A stretch of DNA of 51,252 nt from Thermoplasmatota archaeon. GTDB lineage: Archaea > Thermoplasmatota > Thermoplasmata > Thermoplasmatales > Thermoplasmataceae. Position numbers and translations under genes: made by a program. The stretch spans positions 1 through 51,252 of the forward strand of contig JAMDBT010000035.1 of NCBI GenBank assembly GCA_023487205.1, written 5' to 3'. The stretch's first letter is position 1, and the number at the start of each line of letters is the position of its first letter. Positions 941 to 17,337 of this stretch are shown here, piece after piece. The notes beneath the pieces were generated by a model. That model was given only the letters and a program-made list of their open reading frames with translations. It searched no databases and was not told where the DNA came from.

Positions 941-2128
941 ATGGGAAACCATCGATCCGCGCTCCTGGCAATTTATGTTGCTAGCTTTGTAGGCGGCTTT
1001 GCAAGGTTTCCCCTGTGGATTCTGCTGACTCTTTACCTTTCCCAGTACGGGGGAATGAGCTATTTGGAGATAGGCGCCATATTTACTGCCCAGGGATTGG
1101 CTGCAGTTCCTTTCACGCTTTGGGCAGGCGGTGTGGCCGACCGGATGGGGCGCAGGATTCCGATGCTTTCCAGCATAGGGGTTTCAATCGCCTCCTATTC
1201 CGTGATGCTGTTCTCCGTTGTGCTTCAGCTAAGCATAGTGTTCATAATTGTGTCGTTCTTCGCGCAGGGGATCGCAGTCGCAGTGCAGAGACCGTTCAGC
1301 AGCGCGATCGCAACAGACATCTCCGACCCTGAACGGAGAGTCTCCGTTTTTGGAAACCGCAGGATTGCTTCCAACGCAGGAATCGGCGTGGGGATGATTG
1401 CGTCCGGAGTGGCTTACTACGTGAGCGTCTCCGTATTCTTTCTTATACCGGCAGTCGGGTCAGTAATCGAATTCATTCTCTATTTCTGGAAGGTTAAGGA
1501 GTCGCTGCCCTCCCTGGAAGGAAAGCTGCAAAAGCCGGGAAAGACCATTGACCGGAGAATGATCTCCACGTCTGTTGTCTTCTCGTTCGCGCTGCTGGTT
1601 ACTCTCATGTTCCTCACCCCCATGATCCCACTGTATTTCGGGTCCGTTGACGGTTTTTCCCCGATTGAAACCACCGCAATGTACGCGCTCAACACCCTCA
1701 TCGTCGTGGTGTTTCAAATTCCCGTGAACATGCTGGCTGCGAGGATAGGTGAAAACAAGACCGTTACCCTGGGATTGGCCCTCTACGGCATAGGGTACTT
1801 CTGTCTGGGCATTTTCCACGGCCTCGCTGAGGTTTCCATAATCACCGTGATAATGAGCTTTGGCGAGAACATGGTGATGCCCATGATCCAGTCCATCATC
1901 TCCAAGATCGCTCCTCCTGACAGGAGGGGTGCCTATTTCGGCACTTACGGCGCCATATCCGGCCTGGTAAGCCCTTTCGGCAGCATTATCGGAACTTCCA
2001 TGATCCAGTATTTCGCGGCAACGCCGGTACTGACCTGGATAATACTTGCGGTCTTTGCGTTCGTCATGGCTTTGACCGTCACCGGATTCAATGCAATAAC
2101 GAGGAAATCAGCCGCTGACATAATGTGA
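941..2128 (+). CDS. MFS transporter, drug-efflux type
   Basis: A 395-residue integral membrane protein with about twelve hydrophobic segments, the usual size for the major facilitator superfamily. The loop between helices 2 and 3 carries the family motif A as G-G-V-A-D-R-M-G-R-R, near residues 62-72. A larger cytoplasmic loop rich in lysine separates the two six-helix halves (near residues 185-205). By family it should move a small molecule across the cytoplasmic membrane driven by an ion gradient. The substrate cannot be read from sequence; DHA1-like multidrug or sugar exporters are the nearest types. Its 3' end overlaps the convergent kdpC by 21 bases, so the two messages are complementary at their ends. 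Confidence 0.85.
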   Translation: MGNHRSALLAIYVASFVGGFARFPLWILLTLYLSQYGGMSYLEIGAIFTAQGLAAVPFTLWAGGVADRMGRRIPMLSSIGVSIASYSVMLFSVVLQLSIVFIIVSFFAQGIAVAVQRPFSSAIATDISDPERRVSVFGNRRIASNAGIGVGMIASGVAYYVSVSVFFLIPAVGSVIEFILYFWKVKESLPSLEGKLQKPGKTIDRRMISTSVVFSFALLVTLMFLTPMIPLYFGSVDGFSPIETTAMYALNTLIVVVFQIPVNMLAARIGENKTVTLGLALYGIGYFCLGIFHGLAEVSIITVIMSFGENMVMPMIQSIISKIAPPDRRGAYFGTYGAISGLVSPFGSIIGTSMIQYFAATPVLTWIILAVFAFVMALTVTGFNAITRKSAADIM

Positions 2129-2554
2129 ATAAATGCCCGGATAGGTATTGATCAGGTACAGGTTCACCTTGAGAACGTTCATGTATTCGGTGCCGAAGGA
2201 AATCATCGTATACTGGACGAATTTGTCAACCGTATTCATCAGGATCGCACTCGACAGTCCCGTGGCATTGCTTATCCCCGGAATCTGTGAGTATGCGTCC
2301 GAGATCGTTATGTCCGGATCCACCCCGGAGGCGGAGTCGTTCCTGGGATGGAAGAATACGCTTGCGTTGAATTCCTGTGCAATCAGGTAGGACCCCACCG
2401 TATGGTTACCCAGTGTTGCCTGTTCGCCCACAGACTGGTAAGGAAACGCCACCTCTGCGATTCCGGTAACCACCACCGGAAACAGCAGGCCGCAAAGCAC
2501 CATTGAGACTAATGCCATTCTCAGCGGCGCACTGAATTTTTCCGGTATCTTCAT
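2108..2554 (-). CDS. kdpC: Potassium-transporting ATPase subunit C (short form)
   Basis: KdpC is the single-span subunit that helps assemble and raise the affinity of the KdpFABC potassium pump. At 148 residues it is clearly shorter than bacterial KdpC (about 190). It has an N-terminal membrane span (about 11-33), the conserved G-S-Y-L-I-A-Q segment, the F-F-H-P-R motif equivalent to YFHGRP, and the C-terminal S-A-S-G-V-D-P-D-I-T and V-N-L-Y-L motifs. The stretch that normally lies between the FHGRP and ASG-D motifs, about 45 residues with the ASGGSN loop, is missing. The reading frame is intact, so this is a natural short form rather than a frameshift. Its ATG overlaps the kdpB stop as ATGA, indicating translational coupling. 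The 3' end overlaps the convergent MFS gene by 21 bases. Confidence 0.92.
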   Translation of the reverse strand: MKIPEKFSAPLRMALVSMVLCGLLFPVVVTGIAEVAFPYQSVGEQATLGNHTVGSYLIAQEFNASVFFHPRNDSASGVDPDITISDAYSQIPGISNATGLSSAILMNTVDKFVQYTMISFGTEYMNVLKVNLYLINTYPGIYSHYVSG

Positions 2555-4704
2555 ACAATCCCTCCCGGGATCAGGTTCAGAAGGATTCCGATGGCTTCAA
2601 TCCCCGCAAATGGCAATAATATTCCCCCGAAGCCGTAGATCATGGCATTCCTCAGGAAAATGGACATTGTGCTGCGGGGCCTGAAACGCGCACCCCTCAT
2701 AGCCAGCGGTATCAGGAGAGGTATGATGATCGCGTTGAAGATCAGTGCAGCCAGCACTGCAACGTGCGGCGACAGCCCGAGAATGTTGATCCTCTGGAGA
2801 TCCGGAAGTGATGAGAACATTACAGGGACGATGGCGAAATATTTCGCCAGGTCGTTGGCAATGCTGAAAGTTGTAACTGCACCCCGAGTCATCAGGAGCT
2901 GCTTTCCCATCATGACGACGTCGATGATCTTGCCCGGGCTCGACTCCAGGTCCACGAGATTTGCCGCCTCCTTCGCTGCCATTGTGCCTGACGCCATTGC
3001 CAGGCCAACATCCGCAACCGCCAGCGCGGGAGCATCGTTTGTTCCATCGCCAAGCATGGACACAATCTTCCCCCCCTTCTGTTCCTCAGTGACCAGAAGC
3101 ATCTTGGTCTCGGGCTTTGCCTGGGAAACAATCCTGTCTATTCCAACCTCGGAACCTATCTTTCTCGCAGTCAGTTCCTGGTCTCCGGTTATCATAACGG
3201 GGGTTATCCCCATAATCTCGACGTCTTCGATCTTCGCCCTGATCCCGGATTTAACCCTGTCCCGCAGTCGTATGAATCCGACGATTTCCGTGCCTACCGC
3301 AACCGCCATTGCGGTGTCGCCGGAGGCGGAAATCTCGGATGCCATGTCATCGTATCCACTGGGGCATTCCGGCACTGATTCCCGGATTGCGTCCGGCGCC
3401 CCCTTGGATATGTCAATCTCATCGCCGGTATCCGGCCGGATGTACTTGCGTCTCATCCTTCTCCTCTGGAGGATGCCTTTTCCCCCCTTGGGGAGAACAA
3501 ATTCGTCCGCGTCCTCCAGTTTGACGCTGCTCATCCTGGTAGCTGCACTGAATTCCATCGCCTCTGCCCTGTCAATGGAGGCAAACTCCCTGGGGAAATA
3601 CCCCTTGGTGAAGGAGAGATCAATGATGCTCCTTCCCTCCGGCGTGTCGTCGTTCCAGGAGGATAGAAACGCCGCCTCCCCCACCTCCCTCTCGGTGTGA
3701 CCGCCAATGGGAATGTAGGCAACCGCCGTCCTGTTCCCGTAGGTTATGGTGCCGGTCTTGTCCAGCAGGAGCGTGTCGGTGTCGCCGGCTGCCTCGATTG
3801 CCTTCCCGGACTTGGCAATTATACCCCGGGAGGACATCCTGTTTATCCCGGATATCCCGATTGCGGGGAGCAGTGCCCCGATTGTGGTTGGAAGGAGACA
3901 GACGTACAGCGCAAGCAGCACCGAAAGATCCACGCCCAGATGCAGAATCACCGAAAACCAGAGAAGCACTGCAACGATGATGGTGAAGCCTATTGTAAGA
4001 CCAAGCAGCAGTATTGAAATGGCGGTCTCATTGGGCGTCTTGGGCCTCTTGGAGCTTTCCACGATAGCGATAAGGCGGCTGAGGTATGTTTCTCCAGGAT
4101 TTGCGGAAACCATTGCTATCAGCGTGTCGGACCTCAGTATTGAACCGCCGATGAGGCTGTCCGTGGGTGCCTTTTGCACAAGATCCGATTCTCCGGTAAC
4201 CAGGGATTCGTCAACCATTCCAATCCCCTCAAGCACCTCGCAGTCGATTGGGATATGGTCTCCCTTCCGTATCATGATAATGTCGCCCTTCCTGAGATCC
4301 TTTGATGAAACCTCCGAAGGATTCCTGTCCTTATCCAGCTTGATTGCAGTAACTTCCTGCTCAATCTTCCTCAGGCTCGATGCAGTTGCCCGGATCTGGG
4401 CTTCCGCTATGGAATCAGAAAGCGTGCTGAACCAGACGGTTACGAACAGGATTACCGCAACCACCATGTAAAACGGCTGCTCGGAAGGGGTGGTGACCTT
4501 CGGGATAAGCCCCGGGAAAATGGACAGGATCAGTGTCAGGAAGAATGACAGTTCCACCGCAAGCATGACCGGATTGGAAAGGAGCCTGCGGGGGGAAAGC
4601 CTGACCAGGGATTCCTTCACGATCCCGAGATAACCTGCAGACAACGGACCCCCTGTTTCGGCCAGTCTGCCAGTCACATTCCCACCCTTCACACTAGAAT
4701 CCAT
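2551..4704 (-). CDS. kdpB: Potassium-transporting P-type ATPase subunit B
   Basis: The catalytic subunit of the Kdp high-affinity K+ pump hydrolyses ATP to energise K+ uptake through KdpA. The 717 residues match the family (about 680-700). Visible hallmarks are the actuator-domain TGES (170-173), the membrane motif CLLPTTIG (269-276), the phosphorylation motif DKTGT with the acceptor Asp at 315, the hinge motif M-L-G-D-G-T-N-D, and the coupling-helix motif A-N-D-L-A-K-Y-F-A, which carries the charged Asp and Lys typical of KdpB. The N-terminal 30 residues are a variable cytosolic tail. It sits between kdpA and kdpC, overlapping kdpA by 11 bases and kdpC by 4, so the three genes form one operon. 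No kdpF was found between or before them, and no KdpDE sensor pair is present in the window. Confidence 0.97.
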   Translation of the reverse strand: MDSSVKGGNVTGRLAETGGPLSAGYLGIVKESLVRLSPRRLLSNPVMLAVELSFFLTLILSIFPGLIPKVTTPSEQPFYMVVAVILFVTVWFSTLSDSIAEAQIRATASSLRKIEQEVTAIKLDKDRNPSEVSSKDLRKGDIIMIRKGDHIPIDCEVLEGIGMVDESLVTGESDLVQKAPTDSLIGGSILRSDTLIAMVSANPGETYLSRLIAIVESSKRPKTPNETAISILLLGLTIGFTIIVAVLLWFSVILHLGVDLSVLLALYVCLLPTTIGALLPAIGISGINRMSSRGIIAKSGKAIEAAGDTDTLLLDKTGTITYGNRTAVAYIPIGGHTEREVGEAAFLSSWNDDTPEGRSIIDLSFTKGYFPREFASIDRAEAMEFSAATRMSSVKLEDADEFVLPKGGKGILQRRRMRRKYIRPDTGDEIDISKGAPDAIRESVPECPSGYDDMASEISASGDTAMAVAVGTEIVGFIRLRDRVKSGIRAKIEDVEIMGITPVMITGDQELTARKIGSEVGIDRIVSQAKPETKMLLVTEEQKGGKIVSMLGDGTNDAPALAVADVGLAMASGTMAAKEAANLVDLESSPGKIIDVVMMGKQLLMTRGAVTTFSIANDLAKYFAIVPVMFSSLPDLQRINILGLSPHVAVLAALIFNAIIIPLLIPLAMRGARFRPRSTMSIFLRNAMIYGFGGILLPFAGIEAIGILLNLIPGGIV

Positions 4705-6343
4705 TTACGTGTCCCTCCAGGTAAGCCAGCACCGGTCCGATCACCAGGAACGGGAAAAAAGTCAGAACCGCCAGAAGGAGGATGCTCACAACCAGTATGG
4801 CAGCAAAGGTCAGGTTGTCAGTGTGCAAGCCGGGACTGGGGTTTCTAATTCTGCTGCTCATGCTTCCGGAAATGGACAGCATTAACGCAATTGGAATGAA
4901 CCTGCCCAGCCACATCACCGCAGCGGTGGAAATGTTGAAGAAAGCCGTGTTGCCGGCAGTGCCGAGGAAATCGGACCCGTTATTCGCCGCTGCCGACGTA
5001 AACTCATAGAATATCGTGATGAACCCCTCCGGGTTGTTTCCTGCTCCCGCTGCCGCAGCGGCTCCCGTGGAAAACGCAATCGCCGTGGGAATCAGTATCA
5101 GGACCGGGTGCTGCAGGAAAGCAATGAGCGCAAGTTTCACGTCCCTCGGGGTTATTTTCGCACCAAGATACTCTGGAGTTCTGCCTGCCATCAGCCCCAC
5201 AATGAAGATCGTGATTACAATGTACATGATCATGTACATGGTCCCGACTCCAACGCCTCCGGGAACAGACTGGATCATCATTCCAAGGAAAGCTGCGGTG
5301 ATGACGATCTGGTTGAACGCATAGAGGGATGCATTAACCGACCCCGTGGTAAAGGCCGTGGTCGTCACTGTCCAGAATACCGAAGAAAATGCGCCGAACC
5401 TGACTTCCATACCCTGTCCAAGGGTTGTTACAACGGCGAAAGCGGCAATCAGGTTCATTGCATAGATCGCATATGCCGAAATCAGCACAGTGCTTCCCTC
5501 TTTCCTGTTGCCTACCATCTTTCCGAAGAGGAACGGGACCGAGGTCGGGATCAGCATCATCAGGAAGATTTCGAACCAGTTTGAGATAGGGGAAGGGTTC
5601 TCAAAGGGATAGGCCGAATTTGCGCCAAAATATCCTCCGCCGTTGGTACCAATCTGCATTATTGAAGTCATGGAAGCAACCGGACCAATCTGGAGCATCT
5701 GCGAAGAACCTTCCACGGTCTTCACAAGCAGGTAACCGTTCAGGGACTGGGGAACTCCAAGGCCAACCAGCACAACAGAAGCGACCAGGCTCAATGGGAT
5801 CAGTACCCTGGTGAGGCTCCTGACAAAGTCGGAGTAGAAGTTGCCGATGCCTCCGTACTTGCCTGAGAAACCCCTGAAAATGGCAACAGCAGCCGAAAGT
5901 CCGGAGGCAGCGCTGGTGAACTGCAGGAAAGTTATGCCCATCATCTGGCTCAGGTAGGACAGGGTACTCTCACCTGCATAATGCTGAAGATTCGTATTGG
6001 AGGCTATTGACATAACCGTATTCAGCGCAAGGTCCCATCTTACGTCCGGAAATCCCTGGGGATTCAGAGGGAGATAGAGCTGGAAATTCAGTATTACAAA
6101 AGCCAGTGCTGCCTGGAAAACGTTCAGGATGAGAAGATTAAGGAAGTATTCCTTCCAGGTCATCTCCTTCTTTGGGTCCACACCGCCAAGCTTGAAAAGC
6201 AGGTTGTCAACCGGGTCAAATATTCTATCTAGCCTGCTCTTTCTCTTCCCGAATACCGAGAACAGGTGATTAGAAAGGAACCATGCGGAAAGAATGACTG
6301 CTGTAAAAATGCATAGCGTGAAAATCACGTATAGGGGATTCAT
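4694..6343 (-). CDS. kdpA: Potassium-transporting ATPase subunit A (K+ channel subunit)
   Basis: KdpA is the membrane subunit of the Kdp complex that selects and binds K+. The 549 residues have about ten hydrophobic helices and four pore-loop signatures in order: S-N-T-N-L-Q-H-Y-A-G-E, G-T-N-G-G-G-Y-F, G-S-V-N-A-S and N-N-G-S-D-F. These match the four selectivity-filter regions of known KdpA proteins. The gene is first in the kdpABC operon. An AGGAGG Shine-Dalgarno (6353-6358, minus strand) lies 9 bases before the ATG, so unlike many neighbours this gene has a leader and a strong ribosome binding site. That leader also contains an 8-bp perfect hairpin and, further up, a phased direct repeat, both described separately. 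K+ limitation is the usual inducer of this pump, but the regulator is not identifiable here. Confidence 0.97.
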   Translation of the reverse strand: MNPLYVIFTLCIFTAVILSAWFLSNHLFSVFGKRKSRLDRIFDPVDNLLFKLGGVDPKKEMTWKEYFLNLLILNVFQAALAFVILNFQLYLPLNPQGFPDVRWDLALNTVMSIASNTNLQHYAGESTLSYLSQMMGITFLQFTSAASGLSAAVAIFRGFSGKYGGIGNFYSDFVRSLTRVLIPLSLVASVVLVGLGVPQSLNGYLLVKTVEGSSQMLQIGPVASMTSIMQIGTNGGGYFGANSAYPFENPSPISNWFEIFLMMLIPTSVPFLFGKMVGNRKEGSTVLISAYAIYAMNLIAAFAVVTTLGQGMEVRFGAFSSVFWTVTTTAFTTGSVNASLYAFNQIVITAAFLGMMIQSVPGGVGVGTMYMIMYIVITIFIVGLMAGRTPEYLGAKITPRDVKLALIAFLQHPVLILIPTAIAFSTGAAAAAGAGNNPEGFITIFYEFTSAAANNGSDFLGTAGNTAFFNISTAAVMWLGRFIPIALMLSISGSMSSRIRNPSPGLHTDNLTFAAILVVSILLLAVLTFFPFLVIGPVLAYLEGHVNGF

Positions 6344-9617: not shown

Positions 9618-10265
9618 ATGAGAAGGGTGGGTGTCTATACCCAGGACTTCAAGTTTTACCGCGATGTTATTGACCTGCTTAGGAGATGGGGGATTCCCTT
9701 CGTGAGCCTTGAGCATCCGCATGCCTTTTCCGGGGATGTTGTCATAGTGCTGAGTTCTTTCAAGGACCCGGATTATGGATCACTGCAGGAGAGGTTCTAT
9801 AATCCCAGAAAGGCGGTTAGATTCGCGTTTGCCAGGCTCCTCGGCAAGAGTGCTTTCTCCATGGTTGTGGTGGGGATAGATCCGGGTCCCAGGCCGGGGC
9901 TTGCTGTTGTGTGCGACGGAGTCCTCACGGAAGCGACAGAGTGTCCCGGTATTGATGCACTGGCAGCGGAAGTCGGGGATATACTGAATCACTACCTTTA
10001 CCGGGATGTGGTGGTGAGAATTGGAAATGGGGACCGACCTAACAGGGAGGCCATCATATCATCATTGAAAGGATTGAATGTCCTGACCTATCAGGTCGAT
10101 GAGTCAGGAACCACAATTAAGTACAGAAACGAGAACAATGCCATTTCCGCTGCGAAAATAGCGATGGCGGTGGCGCTCCCTGACGGCGCTGGCAGGAAAC
10201 AGAAAAAGCGGGCAAACTTCGTAGAAAGGAACTTTATTACGATAAGGGGAGTGCTCGGCGCCTAG
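9618..10265 (+). CDS. RNase H-fold (RuvC/YqgF-like) protein, putative nuclease
   Basis: A 215-residue protein. The C-terminal half carries an RNase H-fold signature: strand V-V-V-G-I-D-P-G-P-R-P-G-L-A-V (Asp88), then V-V-R-I-G-N-G-D-R-P-N-R, then Y-Q-V-D-E-S-G-T-T, which resembles the V-D-E-R-x-T-T motif of YqgF, and finally N-A-I-S-A-A-K-I-A. The pattern suggests a metal-dependent nuclease of the RuvC or YqgF group, acting on branched DNA or on RNA. The N-terminal 80 residues form a separate domain beginning M-R-R-V-G-V-Y-T-Q-D. The open frame extends upstream to 9501, but the extension is low in conserved-looking features. The ATG at 9618 is preferred because an A/T box (ATTAAA near 9587) lies about 28 bases before it. 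The stop overlaps the convergent surface-protein gene by 4 bases (CTAG). Confidence 0.7.
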   Translation: MRRVGVYTQDFKFYRDVIDLLRRWGIPFVSLEHPHAFSGDVVIVLSSFKDPDYGSLQERFYNPRKAVRFAFARLLGKSAFSMVVVGIDPGPRPGLAVVCDGVLTEATECPGIDALAAEVGDILNHYLYRDVVVRIGNGDRPNREAIISSLKGLNVLTYQVDESGTTIKYRNENNAISAAKIAMAVALPDGAGRKQKKRANFVERNFITIRGVLGA

Positions 10266-11041
10266 GATTTCTTCTTCCGCCACTTCGGAATGCTGAACTT
10301 GGTTTTCCTTTTCCCCCCGCCAAGAATAATGAGTATCGCAAAAGCTATACCGGCCGCAGCCAGGTAGTAGATCCAGTCGTAGTTGGGTGGAGTCCCGTAG
10401 TAAAACGCGGTATTGCCCGTAGCCGAAACCTGGGAATTGCTGACCTTGACTGATATTGTGTGTTCACCATCGGAAAGACTGGGGTATGCCAAGTCCATGG
10501 TAATGTTTTCAGAACCATATGGCCCCAGGCTTGGGACGGTCTTCTCTGCAACTTGAGTCCCGTCGATATAGAACATAACGGTAAAGTTGTAAATGGCGAC
10601 GGGTCCGTTGTTGGTCAGAGTAGCGTGAAGTACAATCGGGCTCAGAACATTAACCAGCACTGTGCTGTTGGAAACCACATAATCGCCGCCAACTGTGGCT
10701 GTGGCTACAACATGTATAATGAGGGTCTGAGCGGCATCAGGAGATACCACGTTTACCTTGAAATACGGAGAATTCGGACTGAGAGAGTGGTTGGTAGTAG
10801 TTGGACTAATCCCCGTGAGATTGTACCCTGCGGTGTAGACTGTGACGCTGTAGTTTGCCCAGCCGTAGGTGCAGTTGATGTAGAGGCTGAAATTCTCCCC
10901 GGTGTACACATAAGCTGGTGCAGTGGTGGTCGCATGGAATATGCTTGGATGTGGCGTTGCGGCCGCAGTGCTTCCGGCGATCGCAGGAACAAAAGCAAAT
11001 AACGAAACCGCCAGGAGGACTATGATCTTAGCGGGATTCAC
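10262..11041 (-). CDS. Exported, membrane-anchored CARDB-like surface protein
   Basis: A 259-residue protein with an N-terminal signal peptide (about 1-23, A-I-A-G-S-T-A-A-A) and a C-terminal membrane helix (about 224-242). The helix is followed by a strongly basic cytosolic tail, so the bulk faces the outside. The ectodomain is rich in Asn, Ser and Thr with many N-x-S/T glycosylation sequons. Its second half (about 130-215) resembles a CARDB or similar beta-sandwich with L-T-N-N-G-P-V-A-I-Y-N-F-T-V and D-G-E-H-T-I-S-V-K-V. Its start codon overlaps the aglB stop by 4 bases, so the two are translated together. It is probably a partner or substrate of the glycosylation machinery, but this is inferred from position only. 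Confidence 0.75.
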   Translation of the reverse strand: MNPAKIIVLLAVSLFAFVPAIAGSTAAATPHPSIFHATTTAPAYVYTGENFSLYINCTYGWANYSVTVYTAGYNLTGISPTTTNHSLSPNSPYFKVNVVSPDAAQTLIIHVVATATVGGDYVVSNSTVLVNVLSPIVLHATLTNNGPVAIYNFTVMFYIDGTQVAEKTVPSLGPYGSENITMDLAYPSLSDGEHTISVKVSNSQVSATGNTAFYYGTPPNYDWIYYLAAAGIAFAILIILGGGKRKTKFSIPKWRKKKS

Positions 11042-14000
11042 TTTTTCCGCCCCCGTATGCTTGCGACAACGAGGCCACCGACCACGGAACCGATTGTGAT
11101 GATTATGCCTATGAACAGCGTCATCTCCGGGTTTCCACTATAATTGGCAATCACGGAATTTCCGGTGGGATATGTCGTGAGCACGGGAATATTAGGATAT
11201 TGCGGAATAAGGTGAAGACTCTTCGTGGAATTCTGCAAAGTGGCATAGACGGTGACGGACGGCGGAGTAGACTGGGAAGTCCCATTAGGCGAAAGAACGA
11301 GATAAACTGTGGCAGTCTGGTTCATTATCAATGTCAGTTTCGACTCGGTGATGTTATTATATGAGAAGCTCAGGTTCCAGCCAGTATACAGTGACTTGTT
11401 CGCGGATAAGTTTACAGTTTCCTTTCCATTGCCAGTGTTCCCTACCTGGAACTGAACATAAATGTCCTTCTGGTGAGGCTCTCCCACAGTATTGATTGTC
11501 GTCAACGTGAAATTGTAAACCTGAACTACATTAACGCTCAAGTCGCCGGTATAATTGTCAATCCCATAATTTACCGTAACCGGGATGCTATCCTTACCTG
11601 CCGGGGCATACCTGGAGATGTTGACCGTAACGTTGACCGTTATGTTCTTACCGGGTGACATGGATTTAGACGTGGTCTTGTTGAAGACCATCCCCCACGA
11701 ACCGTTTCCCGAGGAAAATGTCACGTTAGCAAAAGATTTGCCCGTATTGTTCAGGTAAAAGGTAAAGTTTGCCTCTGACCCGGGGAGAACGCTAGACTTT
11801 GGCCCGGCAAGCTGGCCCAAGTCGAAGGCATATCCGTAATTCCTCTGCAGGCCCAATGTGATATACGTACCGTATGACACGACAGCAGTAATGTCACTTT
11901 GGTACGTCGTGGTGAAATTAACACCGTCGTAGGTGGCATTGTATGATTCGGATGCCGAGAATCCATAAGATTGCAATCCAAGGAATATGCTTCCGACGGA
12001 ACTGTTGATCATCATTTTGAAGTTGCCTCTAATTATAGTCACATCAGTATTGATCAACTTGGTACCTACTGAAACCGCAATACCTGCCACCGTACCCGGA
12101 CTCATTGTTAAATTGAGCGGATTTGTTCCAGAGAAAGCGGAAATCTGGTCAGTTCCGGTGAATATCGTGCCCGCAGAGGGATTGATCGCATAGATGGAGT
12201 ACGATCCCGACATAACCCCCACGCTGTACCATCCGCTTGCGTTAGCTATCGTGGAGTTAACGTAGAGTCCGCTTGAATTGAGAACGGTTACATTGGTATA
12301 GGGAACAACAGCGAGGCCATTCAGCGCATATCCATCCATGTAATCAATGAATTTGTTCGCAGCAACGCTTACGTTAATCCTTTCTGCGCCCGACACGGAA
12401 AAGAGTGTCGTTCCGAGTATCTTGAAGTCTCCAGAGCGATTGGATTCCAGGAACTGGAACAGGACCGAATACGAACCTCCGGGAAGACTGTAGGAGCCAC
12501 CAGTCAGATTGAGCCTGGCGTTTCCGTAATTGAGGTAATAATTACCACTCTGGATGCTCTTGGAGTTCGTGAATTGCACGCTGTACGAGGTGCCGAACGG
12601 TAAGGAAAGTGTGGCGTTCTTGTTCAGGCTAAGTTCCTTGATCGCAGATCCGGAGGGCCCCGAAGCATACACAGTATAGTTACCGATTGGAACCGGTTCT
12701 GCCTTGCTGAACCGGGTTCCAGTGGCATTGAACAGGGTAATGTTTGTTGCGCCATTCACGCCCACGGAAATGTCTACGCTTACCTGTATGTTAGTAGATT
12801 CGTTCGCCCCCTGAACTGCAATCAGTGCTGGCGTTGGATCCAGATATGCCTCACTGCTTGAGAATGCGAGAGTGTAAATTCCCGGGGAAACGCTTCCCGA
12901 AAACGTCCCATCTGTCATTGGAATGGAGTAGTTAGACGTACCCGAAAGTCTAGCATTTCCGGTATAGTTGGCAATCCCATCTCCAATCAGCAGGTCCGCT
13001 GAAATCTGGTACGTGCGAAGGCTCGCGTGGACTGCAATTGCAGGTGACGATACCGACGCTGATGAAGTGTAGAAGTAGGGACTGACATAGACGGCCCGGA
13101 GCCCCGAACTTATCGAAGATGGGTAGTACAATGCTACCGTTCCGGATGCAGGTACTCTCTGGAAGGAGTACATCGTTCCTCCTCCCCACACTTCAATTAC
13201 ACCGGAATCCAAAAGGCTCGTTCCACCGCTTGTTGAAGAATATACGGACACGGACAGGTTTGCGTTTAGATTCATGGTTATATTCATCGAAATACTGGAG
13301 TAGATGCTGATGACTTTCGTTCTCGAATAAACGACACCCACCGATACACCCTGGGACTCTACCGTGTAGGTACCCTTTGGAATAAGGATAGAGGTCTGAC
13401 TGTACGGACTTAGGTAATAATCCTGAAGCCACCCATCTGATCCAATTATCTCATAATACCCGCTGAACGTCCCATTTCCTGGGACACCAGCAGTGAGATT
13501 AACAAACACTCCTTGCGAAAGGCTCATTGAAATGTAGGTGGATGAATTCAGAATGAAACTATCCAAGGCAACGCTGCTTCCACGTACGGCATATAGAGTA
13601 TATACTCCCAGCGGAAGAGAGATCGCAAATGACCCGTTCGAAGTAGTTGTTGTGTTCCAAGAGGTCCCTGTTACGCCATTCTGGAAAAATTGGATGCCCG
13701 TCGGGCTGCTAATCCCACCAATAATTCCACTAACTGTCGCCGTGGGCAAAGGGGTAAGATTCACGGTCTCATTCAGATTCCATGCCGCGAAGGTAGCCTG
13801 CTGGATTCCAGATACCAGGCCTTTGTCTGATAGGTAAATGCCATAGGTGCCGGGGTTAACCCAGAAGTTTGCAAATCCCGTTGCATTCGTGACATTATAC
13901 GCGGTTCCTGACGGACCTTGCAACGCTACACGTACATCAGGGAGACTTTTGGCACCCAGCTGCGCGCTGACAAAGATAGAGTTTTTCTCAATGATCAAGT

Positions 14001-17000
14001 TCTGATTCAGGGTCAATCCGTTGCTGACTAAAATGTTGTTAATCCCACTGTACGTTGACCCGCCCGTGGTTATGTTAACAGAGTAGTTGTAAAGCGGAAG
14101 ATTCGCAAAATTGTAAGATCCTCCCACAATGGGCACCGAGAACGAGACGTCATTGGATGCATTGTAAAAAGTGACGGACCCGGAATCAATGGTTCTGGTA
14201 AAGTCAGGAGCTACTTTTTCTCCTTTCTGGTAAGGCGCAGCCTGAAACTGAAACTCTACAGCCCCGGAGACCTTGGTGGATCGTAACTGAAAATTCTTCA
14301 CTATGAAATAACTGGGCAACCCGTCGTTAGAGTTAACCCCCAGTGAGGTTCTTTCGGCCTGGGCCTGACTCACATAAACCTTGCTGTACTGAAGCGAGGT
14401 GGTTCCAGCGTCGAATACCTTGTTATACTTCCCAGTGCTGAAAAGCAGGGTATCATTTCCAGGCACTGCTGTAAGGTTGTAATATCCATTGGCATTCGTG
14501 GCAACTGTGTCGTGCGGAATTCCGTACTGGTCGAAAAGTGTGGCGTATATGCCTCCGTCAGGCTGCCCATTGGGCAACGTAACCCTGCCGGTGACTGTGG
14601 CTCCCGGATAGTACCCCACAATCGTATCCGATCCGCTGACAATCTGGTTTGTTGGCGGGAAGATGTATGTCGTACCAATATTCTTCGTGTGATAATAGTA
14701 GGCCTGCTGCAATGGAATGATCTGCCACGCGCCAGTATGGTTCTGGTAGTTCGTGTAAGGATTCCACGGGATTCCCATGTAAAGGATTTCGAAATGGCTC
14801 ATGTTGTGCGCGGGCATTATGGAGTATGTGCCCTGCCCGAACGTGAGTCCTGGAATACCCGAAGTATTCCCTGTATCGTATGGGGAATAACCGAAGAAGA
14901 ACCGATATATGGAAGTGTTGTAGAAGTCCGGTTTGTAATTTATATTATAGTTCACGGGAACCGCACCGTTTGGAAGTTTGTTGAGTGAATAAGTTGATCC
15001 GTTGGCAACTATTGCCGTGATCTGATAGTAATTATATGGAACGACTTCACCGTTGCTGGTATAGCTCGGCCTATCCGTAAGGTACGTCGGAGCATAAAAT
15101 ATGCCGGGGTTTCCTCCAGACAGGGGAATAAGGGAGTGATCGATTCCCACGTATTTTATGTTGTAACCCGTAATTCTTTCCAGTAAAGTGTAAAGATTGA
15201 CGATGGTGGAAGTTGGGTACATATAAGAGAGCTGCCCTGCGACGAGGGCAAAATATGCATTCTCACTGGAAATGCTTGAAATGAATGGACCGTATTCCTT
15301 GGGGTTTTCCGAGATCAGGTTCGAGAAACCGAGCGGGTTGGCCGCAATACGGGATATATTACTAGCCTCTTTCCAGCCGAGGTACTGGGACAAAGCATTC
15401 ATTATGGTCTGGTTATAGGAGGAACCGCTGTGGACATATGCTCCTTCCAGGACACGTGCAGTGAAAAGGGATATGTCCTGGCTCTGGTTCTGTGCTAGAA
15501 GTACCTGGCCTGCAACTTCATATCCCTGCTGGAAGTCGTCGGCAACACTGGGATGATGTCCCTGTGACATCTCCTGAAATCCATAATCCCACCACGAGAC
15601 ATATGCCGGTCTCTGGTTCATAGGCACATTCGTATCTTGCGTCGATAGCCACGAAAATGCCCGGGACAGCGGTGTGGTTGAATTAGTTATGAAAAACCCT
15701 GATGCCCCAGCAAACTGCGGATTGGACGAGGAATAATTCGCAGGCTTCAGGAACGACGGCAAATCATTGTAAATTTGTTGATTTATTGGGTTTGCTGAAT
15801 TCGCAGGAACCCCCGAAGTTACGGTTTCGAAGCCCGATGGTATTACCAGCAGAACAACTATCGATATCGAGAACAGTGCAGTAATCCAGTTGTGCCCGCC
15901 CTTGAGCTTTCTGAAACCGGTTCTTGTAGTATCCCTCTTGGATAGTTGTTTGTCCACCTGGAGAATCCCGATAAAGTAGGAAAGCAAGGCTGCCCCCAGG
16001 ATTGCGTATGCAGGAGCTGCGGTTACGTTGAACCGTGCCGCAGCAAAGCTCATATAAATAGAAACAAGTGAAAACACCAGGAGATACGTCTGGGTATCCT
16101 TTCTCTGCCTCACGAACTGATACGCAAGATAAGCGACTCCCCCCATTCCCAGGATGAATTGCGCGGCGCCAAATCCGGAAATGTACTGACCGAGCTGTGG
16201 GGCAGCAGCCTCAGCAATTGTCGCGTATACCCTGGACTTTATGAAGTAGCCTTCCCCACTGAGCAGGGACTGAAGTAGTGCAGGTTTGAAAACCTCAGCA
16301 GCACCTATGATTGCCAGAAAAACGATCGCGAATGAAGGAAGACTCAGGAGCCAGGGTCTTCCAGATAAAAGGGACATAAATAATCCAAACAGGATAACAC
16401 CGAGTCCGAGGTACAGGGCCGGGTAGTACCAGTAATTGGCGAATCCAGTTGAGACTCCGTCATAATAGTAGAGCGACATCAGAAACGAAATGGAGACGTA
16501 CAGAATTGTCAGGACATTGATGTAGACAAAACTACGCTTCATGAAAATGTTGACTATAATCTGTACAAACGCGTAAATCAGCACTATGGCCTCTATGTAC
16601 GCATATCCCTGCCAGGAAAGCATCAGCCCCCCCATAGAAGCGCCAGACAGGGCACCATATATCAAACCGAGCCGGTTATTTGCGAGATATGCCATTAGTG
16701 CAGATGGCATCTTCCGAATTTCACGCAAGCTGGGGCCCAGAAAATCTTTGGACATGGTGTTTATGGCCTTTCCGAAGAAATAAATGGTAAAAAAGGCAAA
16801 TATTAGTTCTGGAGTATGCATTCTTCCATCCGACAGGACCCCTGAGGAAAGGTTGCTGGGCATCAATGTGTACAGTATCGCAGCGATCGCCCCGGTCTTT
16901 TTCCCAAAGACCTCAGCCGCAATGAGATATACCGGGATGATCAGGAGCGCCCCGAAGACCGCGTCAAATTCAAGGAATGTGAGTTTCGCCGGATACAGAG

Positions 17001-17337
17001 CACCGCCCATGAAAGGCGCCAGCACCTCAGCTATGAATACTATGAAAAGGTGAAAGAAAGGCGGCCTCGGATTTAGAGCGCCTATTGGGTAATTTAGAGA
17101 ATAATCGTAGTAAATCCAGTGATGGTCCTGGATAAAAGTGGAGATTAACCTGAAATTGTAGTATGGATCACTTCCCCCCGAAACATACAGCCCGGCACCC
17201 AGGGAAGAGGAAACCGAGAAATAGTTCGCAAGGAACAGGTAGAGTGTCATAAGGAGTGCGAGAATTGCCACTTCCGGGTTGCGACCAAAAAAATTCTGCA
17301 ATCTTTGCAGCGAAGATTCGTGAGCGTCTTCCATCAA
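11038..17337 (-). CDS. aglB: Oligosaccharyltransferase AglB/STT3 fused to a giant beta-sandwich ectodomain
   Basis: A 2099-residue protein. Residues 1-905 are an archaeal STT3/AglB, which transfers a lipid-linked glycan to Asn in N-x-S/T sequons on the outer face of the membrane. It has about 12-13 membrane helices (to about 502) and the first-loop acidic motif S-D-P-Y-Y-N-F (56-62). The T-I-A-E motif lies at 373-376 and the hallmark W-W-D-Y-G at 582-586. A possible DK-type motif, G-I-D-H-S-L-I-P, lies at 731-738. From about 910 onward come roughly 1150 extra residues of repeated beta-sandwich segments: carboxypeptidase-regulatory-like units (V-T-G-R-V-T-L-P-N-G) and PEGA or CNA-B-like units (G-x-Y-x-[VL]). 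NEW3/CARDB-like modules near 1820-2050 come before a final membrane helix and R-G-R-K-K. Usual AglB length is 800-1000, so this is more than double. The extension is dense in sequons, so the enzyme may modify itself. Confidence 0.93.
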   Translation of the reverse strand: MMEDAHESSLQRLQNFFGRNPEVAILALLMTLYLFLANYFSVSSSLGAGLYVSGGSDPYYNFRLISTFIQDHHWIYYDYSLNYPIGALNPRPPFFHLFIVFIAEVLAPFMGGALYPAKLTFLEFDAVFGALLIIPVYLIAAEVFGKKTGAIAAILYTLMPSNLSSGVLSDGRMHTPELIFAFFTIYFFGKAINTMSKDFLGPSLREIRKMPSALMAYLANNRLGLIYGALSGASMGGLMLSWQGYAYIEAIVLIYAFVQIIVNIFMKRSFVYINVLTILYVSISFLMSLYYYDGVSTGFANYWYYPALYLGLGVILFGLFMSLLSGRPWLLSLPSFAIVFLAIIGAAEVFKPALLQSLLSGEGYFIKSRVYATIAEAAAPQLGQYISGFGAAQFILGMGGVAYLAYQFVRQRKDTQTYLLVFSLVSIYMSFAAARFNVTAAPAYAILGAALLSYFIGILQVDKQLSKRDTTRTGFRKLKGGHNWITALFSISIVVLLVIPSGFETVTSGVPANSANPINQQIYNDLPSFLKPANYSSSNPQFAGASGFFITNSTTPLSRAFSWLSTQDTNVPMNQRPAYVSWWDYGFQEMSQGHHPSVADDFQQGYEVAGQVLLAQNQSQDISLFTARVLEGAYVHSGSSYNQTIMNALSQYLGWKEASNISRIAANPLGFSNLISENPKEYGPFISSISSENAYFALVAGQLSYMYPTSTIVNLYTLLERITGYNIKYVGIDHSLIPLSGGNPGIFYAPTYLTDRPSYTSNGEVVPYNYYQITAIVANGSTYSLNKLPNGAVPVNYNINYKPDFYNTSIYRFFFGYSPYDTGNTSGIPGLTFGQGTYSIMPAHNMSHFEILYMGIPWNPYTNYQNHTGAWQIIPLQQAYYYHTKNIGTTYIFPPTNQIVSGSDTIVGYYPGATVTGRVTLPNGQPDGGIYATLFDQYGIPHDTVATNANGYYNLTAVPGNDTLLFSTGKYNKVFDAGTTSLQYSKVYVSQAQAERTSLGVNSNDGLPSYFIVKNFQLRSTKVSGAVEFQFQAAPYQKGEKVAPDFTRTIDSGSVTFYNASNDVSFSVPIVGGSYNFANLPLYNYSVNITTGGSTYSGINNILVSNGLTLNQNLIIEKNSIFVSAQLGAKSLPDVRVALQGPSGTAYNVTNATGFANFWVNPGTYGIYLSDKGLVSGIQQATFAAWNLNETVNLTPLPTATVSGIIGGISSPTGIQFFQNGVTGTSWNTTTTSNGSFAISLPLGVYTLYAVRGSSVALDSFILNSSTYISMSLSQGVFVNLTAGVPGNGTFSGYYEIIGSDGWLQDYYLSPYSQTSILIPKGTYTVESQGVSVGVVYSRTKVISIYSSISMNITMNLNANLSVSVYSSTSGGTSLLDSGVIEVWGGGTMYSFQRVPASGTVALYYPSSISSGLRAVYVSPYFYTSSASVSSPAIAVHASLRTYQISADLLIGDGIANYTGNARLSGTSNYSIPMTDGTFSGSVSPGIYTLAFSSSEAYLDPTPALIAVQGANESTNIQVSVDISVGVNGATNITLFNATGTRFSKAEPVPIGNYTVYASGPSGSAIKELSLNKNATLSLPFGTSYSVQFTNSKSIQSGNYYLNYGNARLNLTGGSYSLPGGSYSVLFQFLESNRSGDFKILGTTLFSVSGAERINVSVAANKFIDYMDGYALNGLAVVPYTNVTVLNSSGLYVNSTIANASGWYSVGVMSGSYSIYAINPSAGTIFTGTDQISAFSGTNPLNLTMSPGTVAGIAVSVGTKLINTDVTIIRGNFKMMINSSVGSIFLGLQSYGFSASESYNATYDGVNFTTTYQSDITAVVSYGTYITLGLQRNYGYAFDLGQLAGPKSSVLPGSEANFTFYLNNTGKSFANVTFSSGNGSWGMVFNKTTSKSMSPGKNITVNVTVNISRYAPAGKDSIPVTVNYGIDNYTGDLSVNVVQVYNFTLTTINTVGEPHQKDIYVQFQVGNTGNGKETVNLSANKSLYTGWNLSFSYNNITESKLTLIMNQTATVYLVLSPNGTSQSTPPSVTVYATLQNSTKSLHLIPQYPNIPVLTTYPTGNSVIANYSGNPEMTLFIGIIITIGSVVGGLVVASIRGRKK

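Follow-up and report, generated by a model that had tools for sequence, protein, structure and literature searches.

An AglB oligosaccharyltransferase with a long beta-sandwich tail and an adjacent partner gene in the class Thermoplasmata, and its motif-eroded relatives in methanogens

Archaeal oligosaccharyltransferases (OSTs) are treated as single-subunit enzymes of about 900 residues. The gene considered here, which lies in a stretch of 51,252 nucleotides from a Thermoplasmatota archaeon (contig JAMDBT010000035.1, henceforth the window), is open over 2,099 codons, raising the question of whether an enzyme of this kind and a long chain of surface domains truly form one protein and, if so, what the added part is for. 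The original prediction had described the product as AglB extended by a beta-sandwich tail with a C-terminal membrane helix, a description which Pfam, conserved motifs, AlphaFold2, the Foldseek match to PDB entry 7e9s and hydropathy bear out. The strand had to be corrected, as the interval 11038-17337 is open on the minus strand, the plus strand of the same interval containing many stops. The features referred to below are the following.

10262..11041, minus strand: partner gene, 259 aa, with N-terminal hydrophobic segment, CARDB domain (residues 133-201), C-terminal transmembrane segment and basic PKWRKKKS end (Pfam, sequence)
11038..17337, minus strand: AglB/STT3 oligosaccharyltransferase gene of 2,099 codons (TTG start, ATG as next codon), including the long beta-sandwich tail
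15817..17334, minus strand: multi-helix membrane region of AglB, residues ~2-507, including DPYYNF (57-62) and TIAE (373-376) (motifs, Pfam, AlphaFold2)
17152..17169, minus strand: first DXD-type motif region, D57-P-Y-Y-N-F (sequence/alignment)
16210..16221, minus strand: TIXE motif, T373-I-A-E376 (sequence/alignment)
15580..15594, minus strand: WWDYG motif, residues 582-586, W582-WDYG (sequence/alignment)
14623..15816, minus strand: extracytoplasmic globular domain of AglB, residues 508-905 (AlphaFold2 model and fold match)
11188..14622, minus strand: tail of ~13 beta-sandwich modules, residues 906-2050 (Pfam, conservation, AlphaFold2)
14422..14598, minus strand: first CarboxypepD_reg-like sandwich, residues 914-972 (Pfam, class alignment)
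11566..11781, minus strand: NEW3/NPCBM_assoc-like module, residues 1853-1924 (Pfam match below cut-off)
11041..11130, minus strand: C-terminal transmembrane helix and basic cytosolic end (...ASIRGRKK), residues 2070-2099 (hydropathy, AlphaFold2)

Elsewhere in the window, three consecutive genes at 2108-6343 (minus strand) resemble, on inspection by eye alone, an operon for Kdp potassium transport (KdpC, KdpB, KdpA).

With TTG followed directly by ATG the product counts 2,098 or 2,099 residues, which are laid out as an AglB/STT3 head (~1-905), a series of sandwich modules (~912-2045) and, at ~2070-2099, a membrane helix that ends in basic residues on the cytosolic side. Residues 33-459 match Pfam STT3 (PF02516) with 34.7 bits at a cut-off of 24.5, the NCBIfam model archaeo_STT3 (TIGR04154, archaeosortase-associated STT3) gives E 3e-52 and 178 bits, which is below its curated cut-off of 450, and A. 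fulgidus AglB was found as a sequence match of the head. A genome search identified the protein as the sole STT3 in its 1.56-Mb genome. The AlphaFold2 model of residues 2-1190 (pLDDT 85.7, pTM 0.79) has A. fulgidus AglB (7e9s) as its best solved match (Foldseek E 7.4e-27, TM 0.67 by target), with eukaryotic STT3 and bacterial PglB ranking next. The first DXD Asp, TIXE and WWDYG motifs, the roles of which in OSTs have been described (PMC8342417), are all present. The second DXD-type motif (D-x-H/D in EL2) reads DGRMHTP in the window (residues 169-175; 16813-16833, minus strand), where most AglBs outside the window's family read e.g. NADHDAM (D-H-H/D-H-D elsewhere), and its metal ligands may be rearranged or shifted in this family. 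By fold and motifs the protein is thus an AglB/STT3 oligosaccharyltransferase, for which glycan transfer is predicted. With the archaeal enzyme as represented by A. fulgidus AglB-L (PDB 7e9s, 3waj, 5gmy) it shares the membrane fold, TIXE and WWDYG motifs and the globular catalytic domain; however, A. fulgidus AglB has ~870 aa, without a sandwich chain and without a C-terminal anchor, whereas the window AglB possesses 1,200 further residues and a linked partner gene.

For the tail, CarboxypepD_reg was found above the Pfam cut-off at three stretches, the best being residues 914-972. The AlphaFold2 model of residues 905-2099 (pLDDT 86.0, pTM 0.50), in which the modules are good and their mutual placement is uncertain, is all-beta to ~2043, with an unbroken sandwich series at ~912-2045, a low-confidence linker and a C-terminal helix, agreeing with the chain of sandwiches that the original prediction had envisaged. 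The number of modules is estimated by us, from conserved Gly/Tyr positions, at ~13, of which ~11 are transthyretin/CarboxypepD_reg-like and two are NEW3-like. Hydropathy places a strong transmembrane helix at 2074-2092, followed by the C-terminal residues RGRKK, and since the globular domain of AglB is extracytoplasmic, the tail is expected outside the cell as well, with the last residues inside. Foldseek searches with the tail returned many generic beta-sandwich chains (TM 0.06-0.14 by query), which are uninformative on function.

Long-tailed AglB is the rule in the class Thermoplasmata and common in the phylum, hence it is no peculiarity of the window genome. The comparison of AglB length and tail covered genomes within the phylum, whereby the tail was found class-wide and its first sandwich in the long AglBs sampled from the phylum. 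The whole-protein query matched 188 of 200 class genomes (122 of 126 among those of good quality), nearly all matches being single unbroken frames of ~2,050-2,430 aa, or 1,830-2,430 aa overall when the methanogen family f8 (1,829-2,029 aa) is included. Genomes with the class-type AglB include Ferroplasma acidarmanus Fer1 (NC_021592, G052), Thermoplasma spp., Acidiplasma aeolicum VT and DHVE2 archaea. A frameshift, an assembly join or close relatives with two genes had been named as what would speak against the fusion: in the same-family sample 23 of 26 genomes carry one frame (2,053-2,127 aa), and a frameshift did turn up in one case, the E-plasma MAG scaffold G158, which alone looks split and in which the two resulting frames of 1,232 and 893 aa overlap, so that separate genes in close relatives were rejected. 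Except for this frameshifted protein, every complete class protein carries a transmembrane helix that lies 4-14 residues before its C-terminus. Across the other classes of the phylum, the open frames of AglB range from ~1,120 to ~3,220 aa, those below ~1,430 aa being without a C-terminal transmembrane helix. Distances computed for head and tail correlate (Spearman 0.85, Mantel p 0.001), from which it follows that both were inherited together. A natural deletion mutant is provided by Acidiplasma (G166, G182; L053, L054), the other two exceptions among the 26 same-family genomes, in which AglB is shortened to 1,425-1,442 aa by a clean internal deletion of ~650-700 residues (about residues 1180-1890) that spares the first modules, the last NEW3-like region with the end modules, and the transmembrane helix.

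Further variation was observed at the other end of the protein, as the ~3,200-aa AglBs of families f44 and f52 (L072, L073, L074, L091) carry ~350 residues ahead of the STT3 domain, an extension for which no Pfam match was found, and L076 carries ~250. In five genomes of other classes (G211, G219, G227, G237, G240) STT3 was matched twice, usually by a short protein of canonical type (~900-1,000 aa) together with a longer one.

Within the class alignment, conservation at residues 901-950 equals that of the catalytic globular domain. All long phylum AglBs sampled have a recognisable first sandwich (residues ~900-1000), which was not seen in the short 903-aa AglB of G240. Beyond ~residue 1050 conservation of the tail is low, gaps are few and length is near-constant. 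The density of the tail in sequons, which the original prediction had noted, proved to be a true enrichment: 52 N-x-S/T sites (x not P) occur in residues 906-2070 of the window AglB, where shuffled sequences give 21.9 +/- 3.9 (z = 7.7). Likewise, the tails of 36 class representatives with intact OST motifs gave a pooled observed-to-expected ratio (O/E) of 2.17, that of the reversed motif being 1.14, and 37 partners from class loci with intact OST gave 2.68 (reversed 0.97). Controls were drawn from the window and the examined loci; the 24 other window ORFs gave 0.96. Chance density resulting from N/S/T-rich composition is ruled out by the shuffles, the reversed motif and the other window ORFs. 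The tail is thus likely a glycosylated ectodomain, with glycans being predicted and their actual occupancy presumed. It may be modified in cis by its own enzyme, or it may tether the enzyme to the glycocalyx, as the original prediction had suggested; from sequence, glycosylation in cis cannot be told apart from that in trans.

The second surface protein that had been proposed to be coupled to AglB was confirmed at 10262-11041 (minus strand). Its GTG start overlaps the stop of the window AglB by 4 nt, its CARDB domain scores 39.5 bits (Pfam cut-off 22.7) and a transmembrane segment follows. In 55 of 55 class loci examined, a profile built from 24 AglB-adjacent neighbour genes places the start of homology to the partner between -21 and +21 nt from the AglB stop, and a phylum-wide search gave a strong match in 37 of 37 class genomes sampled. 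Judged by coordinates, G203 and G214, which belong to another class, likewise have the partner next to AglB. Co-transcription of both genes and a physical complex of the two proteins are assumed. Archaeal CARDB/NEW3 surface proteins have in common with this pair the CARDB domain of the partner, the NEW3-like modules of the tail and a membrane-anchored ectodomain; those are free-standing, however, whereas the partner is held in locked synteny with AglB in the class. In G209, G204 and G236, AglB itself ends in a module resembling the CARDB-transmembrane part of the partner, and as a consequence the partner may derive from the tail or may have been absorbed into it. For the AglBs L076, L078 and L079, the last ~120-190 residues were seen to match the CARDB-transmembrane profile of the partner, which hints that the tail and the partner gene have undergone fission or fusion.

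A different state of the enzyme was identified in family f8, which is methanogenic by mcrA and presumably represents Methanomethylophilaceae. According to our own reading of the alignment, an intact WWDYG is absent from 20 of 20 full-length f8 proteins examined, and in 18 of these the DXD Asp, the TIXE Glu or both are missing as well; D57- and E376-like residues are kept in L176 and L178, and motifs are intact in the divergent genus g69 (G125), the exception in this family. A separate STT3 was not found in the f8 genomes scanned. The enzyme part of f8 seems to have lost catalytic residues; as the window AglB likewise has an atypical second DXD motif, reading of motifs is not decisive for OST activity. 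The eroded genes show dN/dS < 1 in all three regions of six out of six pairs, mostly 0.09-0.66, with one pair so close that it counts for little, and both the eroded AglB gene and its partner are kept under purifying selection. Sequon ratios are low in f8, amounting to 1.19 for 18 tails (reversed 1.08) and to 1.28 for partners (reversed 1.04). The Mann-Whitney comparison of intact and eroded tails (p = 1e-8) is overstated, since the contrast essentially represents about two evolutionary events (f8; G160 in f29) and not 21 independent points. From low sequon ratios in f8 and retention of both genes, the simplest reading is that tail and partner would be OST substrates where the OST works and would fulfil a second task where it does not, which suggests a job beyond glycan transfer. 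The motif-eroded AglBs (L172-L189, L191 and L192 of f8, and L062 of G160 in f29) have intact long frames with the partner adjacent, and form a candidate pseudo-OST clade.

As to known proteins resembling the tail, a search of its profile against all PDB sequences returned NOMO2, a component of the BOS complex of the ER multipass translocon, with E 1.6e-30, the next match being SdrD (1.2e-8). NOMO (nodal modulator) consists of 12 Ig-like domains in a chain, one C-terminal transmembrane helix and a short cytosolic tail (PMC12262048). As the closest solved relative by sequence it has in common with the tail a beta-sandwich chain outside the cytosol and the C-terminal helix; NOMO is a separate protein in eukaryotes and a BOS subunit of the translocon, whereas the tail is fused to AglB in one frame. 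The Pfam model NOMO_5th (PF23194) found no match in the window genome, and in 23 phylum genomes the best reached 22.9 bits (cut-off 27), all four such sub-cut-off matches being AglB proteins. A scan of L062 with the NOMO model gave 46 bits summed over the protein, with no single qualifying stretch, and NOMO is not among the 50 listed fold matches of the tail. Membership in NOMO is not claimed, as its Pfam model was not reached in the whole-genome search and the likeness is distributed among several modules of a generic transthyretin-like type; the tail is described here as built like NOMO. In the eukaryotic OST complex, catalytic STT3 works together with companions such as ribophorin I and OST48, which span the membrane once and are beta-rich outside the cytosol; shared with the present case is an STT3 accompanied by beta-rich extracytosolic parts, here with the largest companion fused in cis. 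General searches with tail and partner gave no sequence match and no listed fold match to eukaryotic OST subunits.

Considering these data, the standard OST of the class Thermoplasmata is probably a two-anchor enzyme which, with its partner, forms a glycosylated extracytoplasmic scaffold. The AglB head would transfer lipid-linked glycans onto sequons outside the cell, while its polypeptide would run on as a glycan-decorated chain of ~13 sandwiches and return to the membrane via the C-terminal helix. The presumably co-transcribed CARDB type-I membrane protein would serve as dedicated partner, and the arm and the partner, both glycosylated, would constitute a scaffold on mostly wall-less cells, which would either belong to the glycoprotein coat or serve as a platform keeping emerging surface proteins close to the OST. 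A role of this scaffold beyond that of a substrate is suggested because tail and partner persist where the OST motifs are eroded. A further-reaching version, which we put forward tentatively, sees a bifunctional OST and NOMO-like glycosylated scaffold with its partner, whereby in the methanogen family the scaffold may have outlived the enzyme, giving a pseudo-OST that is retained for a structural role in cells without N-glycosylation.

The tail might instead act purely as a passive spacer or as a carrier of glycans in cis, i.e., as a fused surface glycoprotein ectodomain that is retained because it is long and hydrophilic and that neither forms a scaffold nor handles clients. This idea is suggested because conservation is low beyond ~residue 1050 and length varies (proteins of 1,425-2,430 aa); poor sequence conservation with near-constant length past this point, sequon enrichment and the large natural deletion tolerated by Acidiplasma would all agree with it. 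We nevertheless regard it as rather unlikely, as the first sandwich (905-1000) is conserved like a globular domain and occurs in all long phylum AglBs tested, the linkage to a dedicated partner is strict, and tail and partner are kept where OST motifs are eroded. It appears quite improbable that tail and partner are an intramolecular accessory arm of the OST, feeding or holding acceptors or binding the Sec translocon in the way of separate ER subunits or translocon factors. NOMO2 as best PDB sequence match, the restriction of NOMO_5th matches, all below cut-off, to AglB proteins and the strongly conserved first sandwich would fit such an arm, but the likeness to NOMO is that of a generic transthyretin-like module adding up over repeats, NOMO is absent from the listed fold matches, and an accessory role makes less sense where the scaffold is kept with eroded OST motifs. 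Fusion of two genes by assembly join or frameshift, for which the unusual length and the two frames of G158 might be quoted, has practically no probability left, as the one continuous frame is found again in independent genomes, some of them single-contig, and G158 is a frameshifted metagenome scaffold.

For long AglBs in Thermoplasmata and an OST in Methanomassiliicoccales, the literature covered, which was limited, gave only mentions of AglB homologues; Thermoplasmatales papers mention such homologues, size or tail not being noted (PMC5155288, PMC3750248). According to PMC8993221, citing Nikolayev 2020, all sequenced archaea but two have AglB, a statement which would need to be qualified if the f8 proteins are inactive. 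Under the preferred reading of a two-anchor enzyme with a partner, the glycosylation machinery of the class may be a multi-part complex, a description not found in the literature searched. A whole class and much of its phylum possess OSTs of two to three times the usual size to which an ectodomain is fused, and within the class a dedicated gene lies next to that of the enzyme. Family f8 offers a natural control, in which it can be asked whether N-glycosylation was lost or not and which role the non-catalytic part of the OST fulfils alone.
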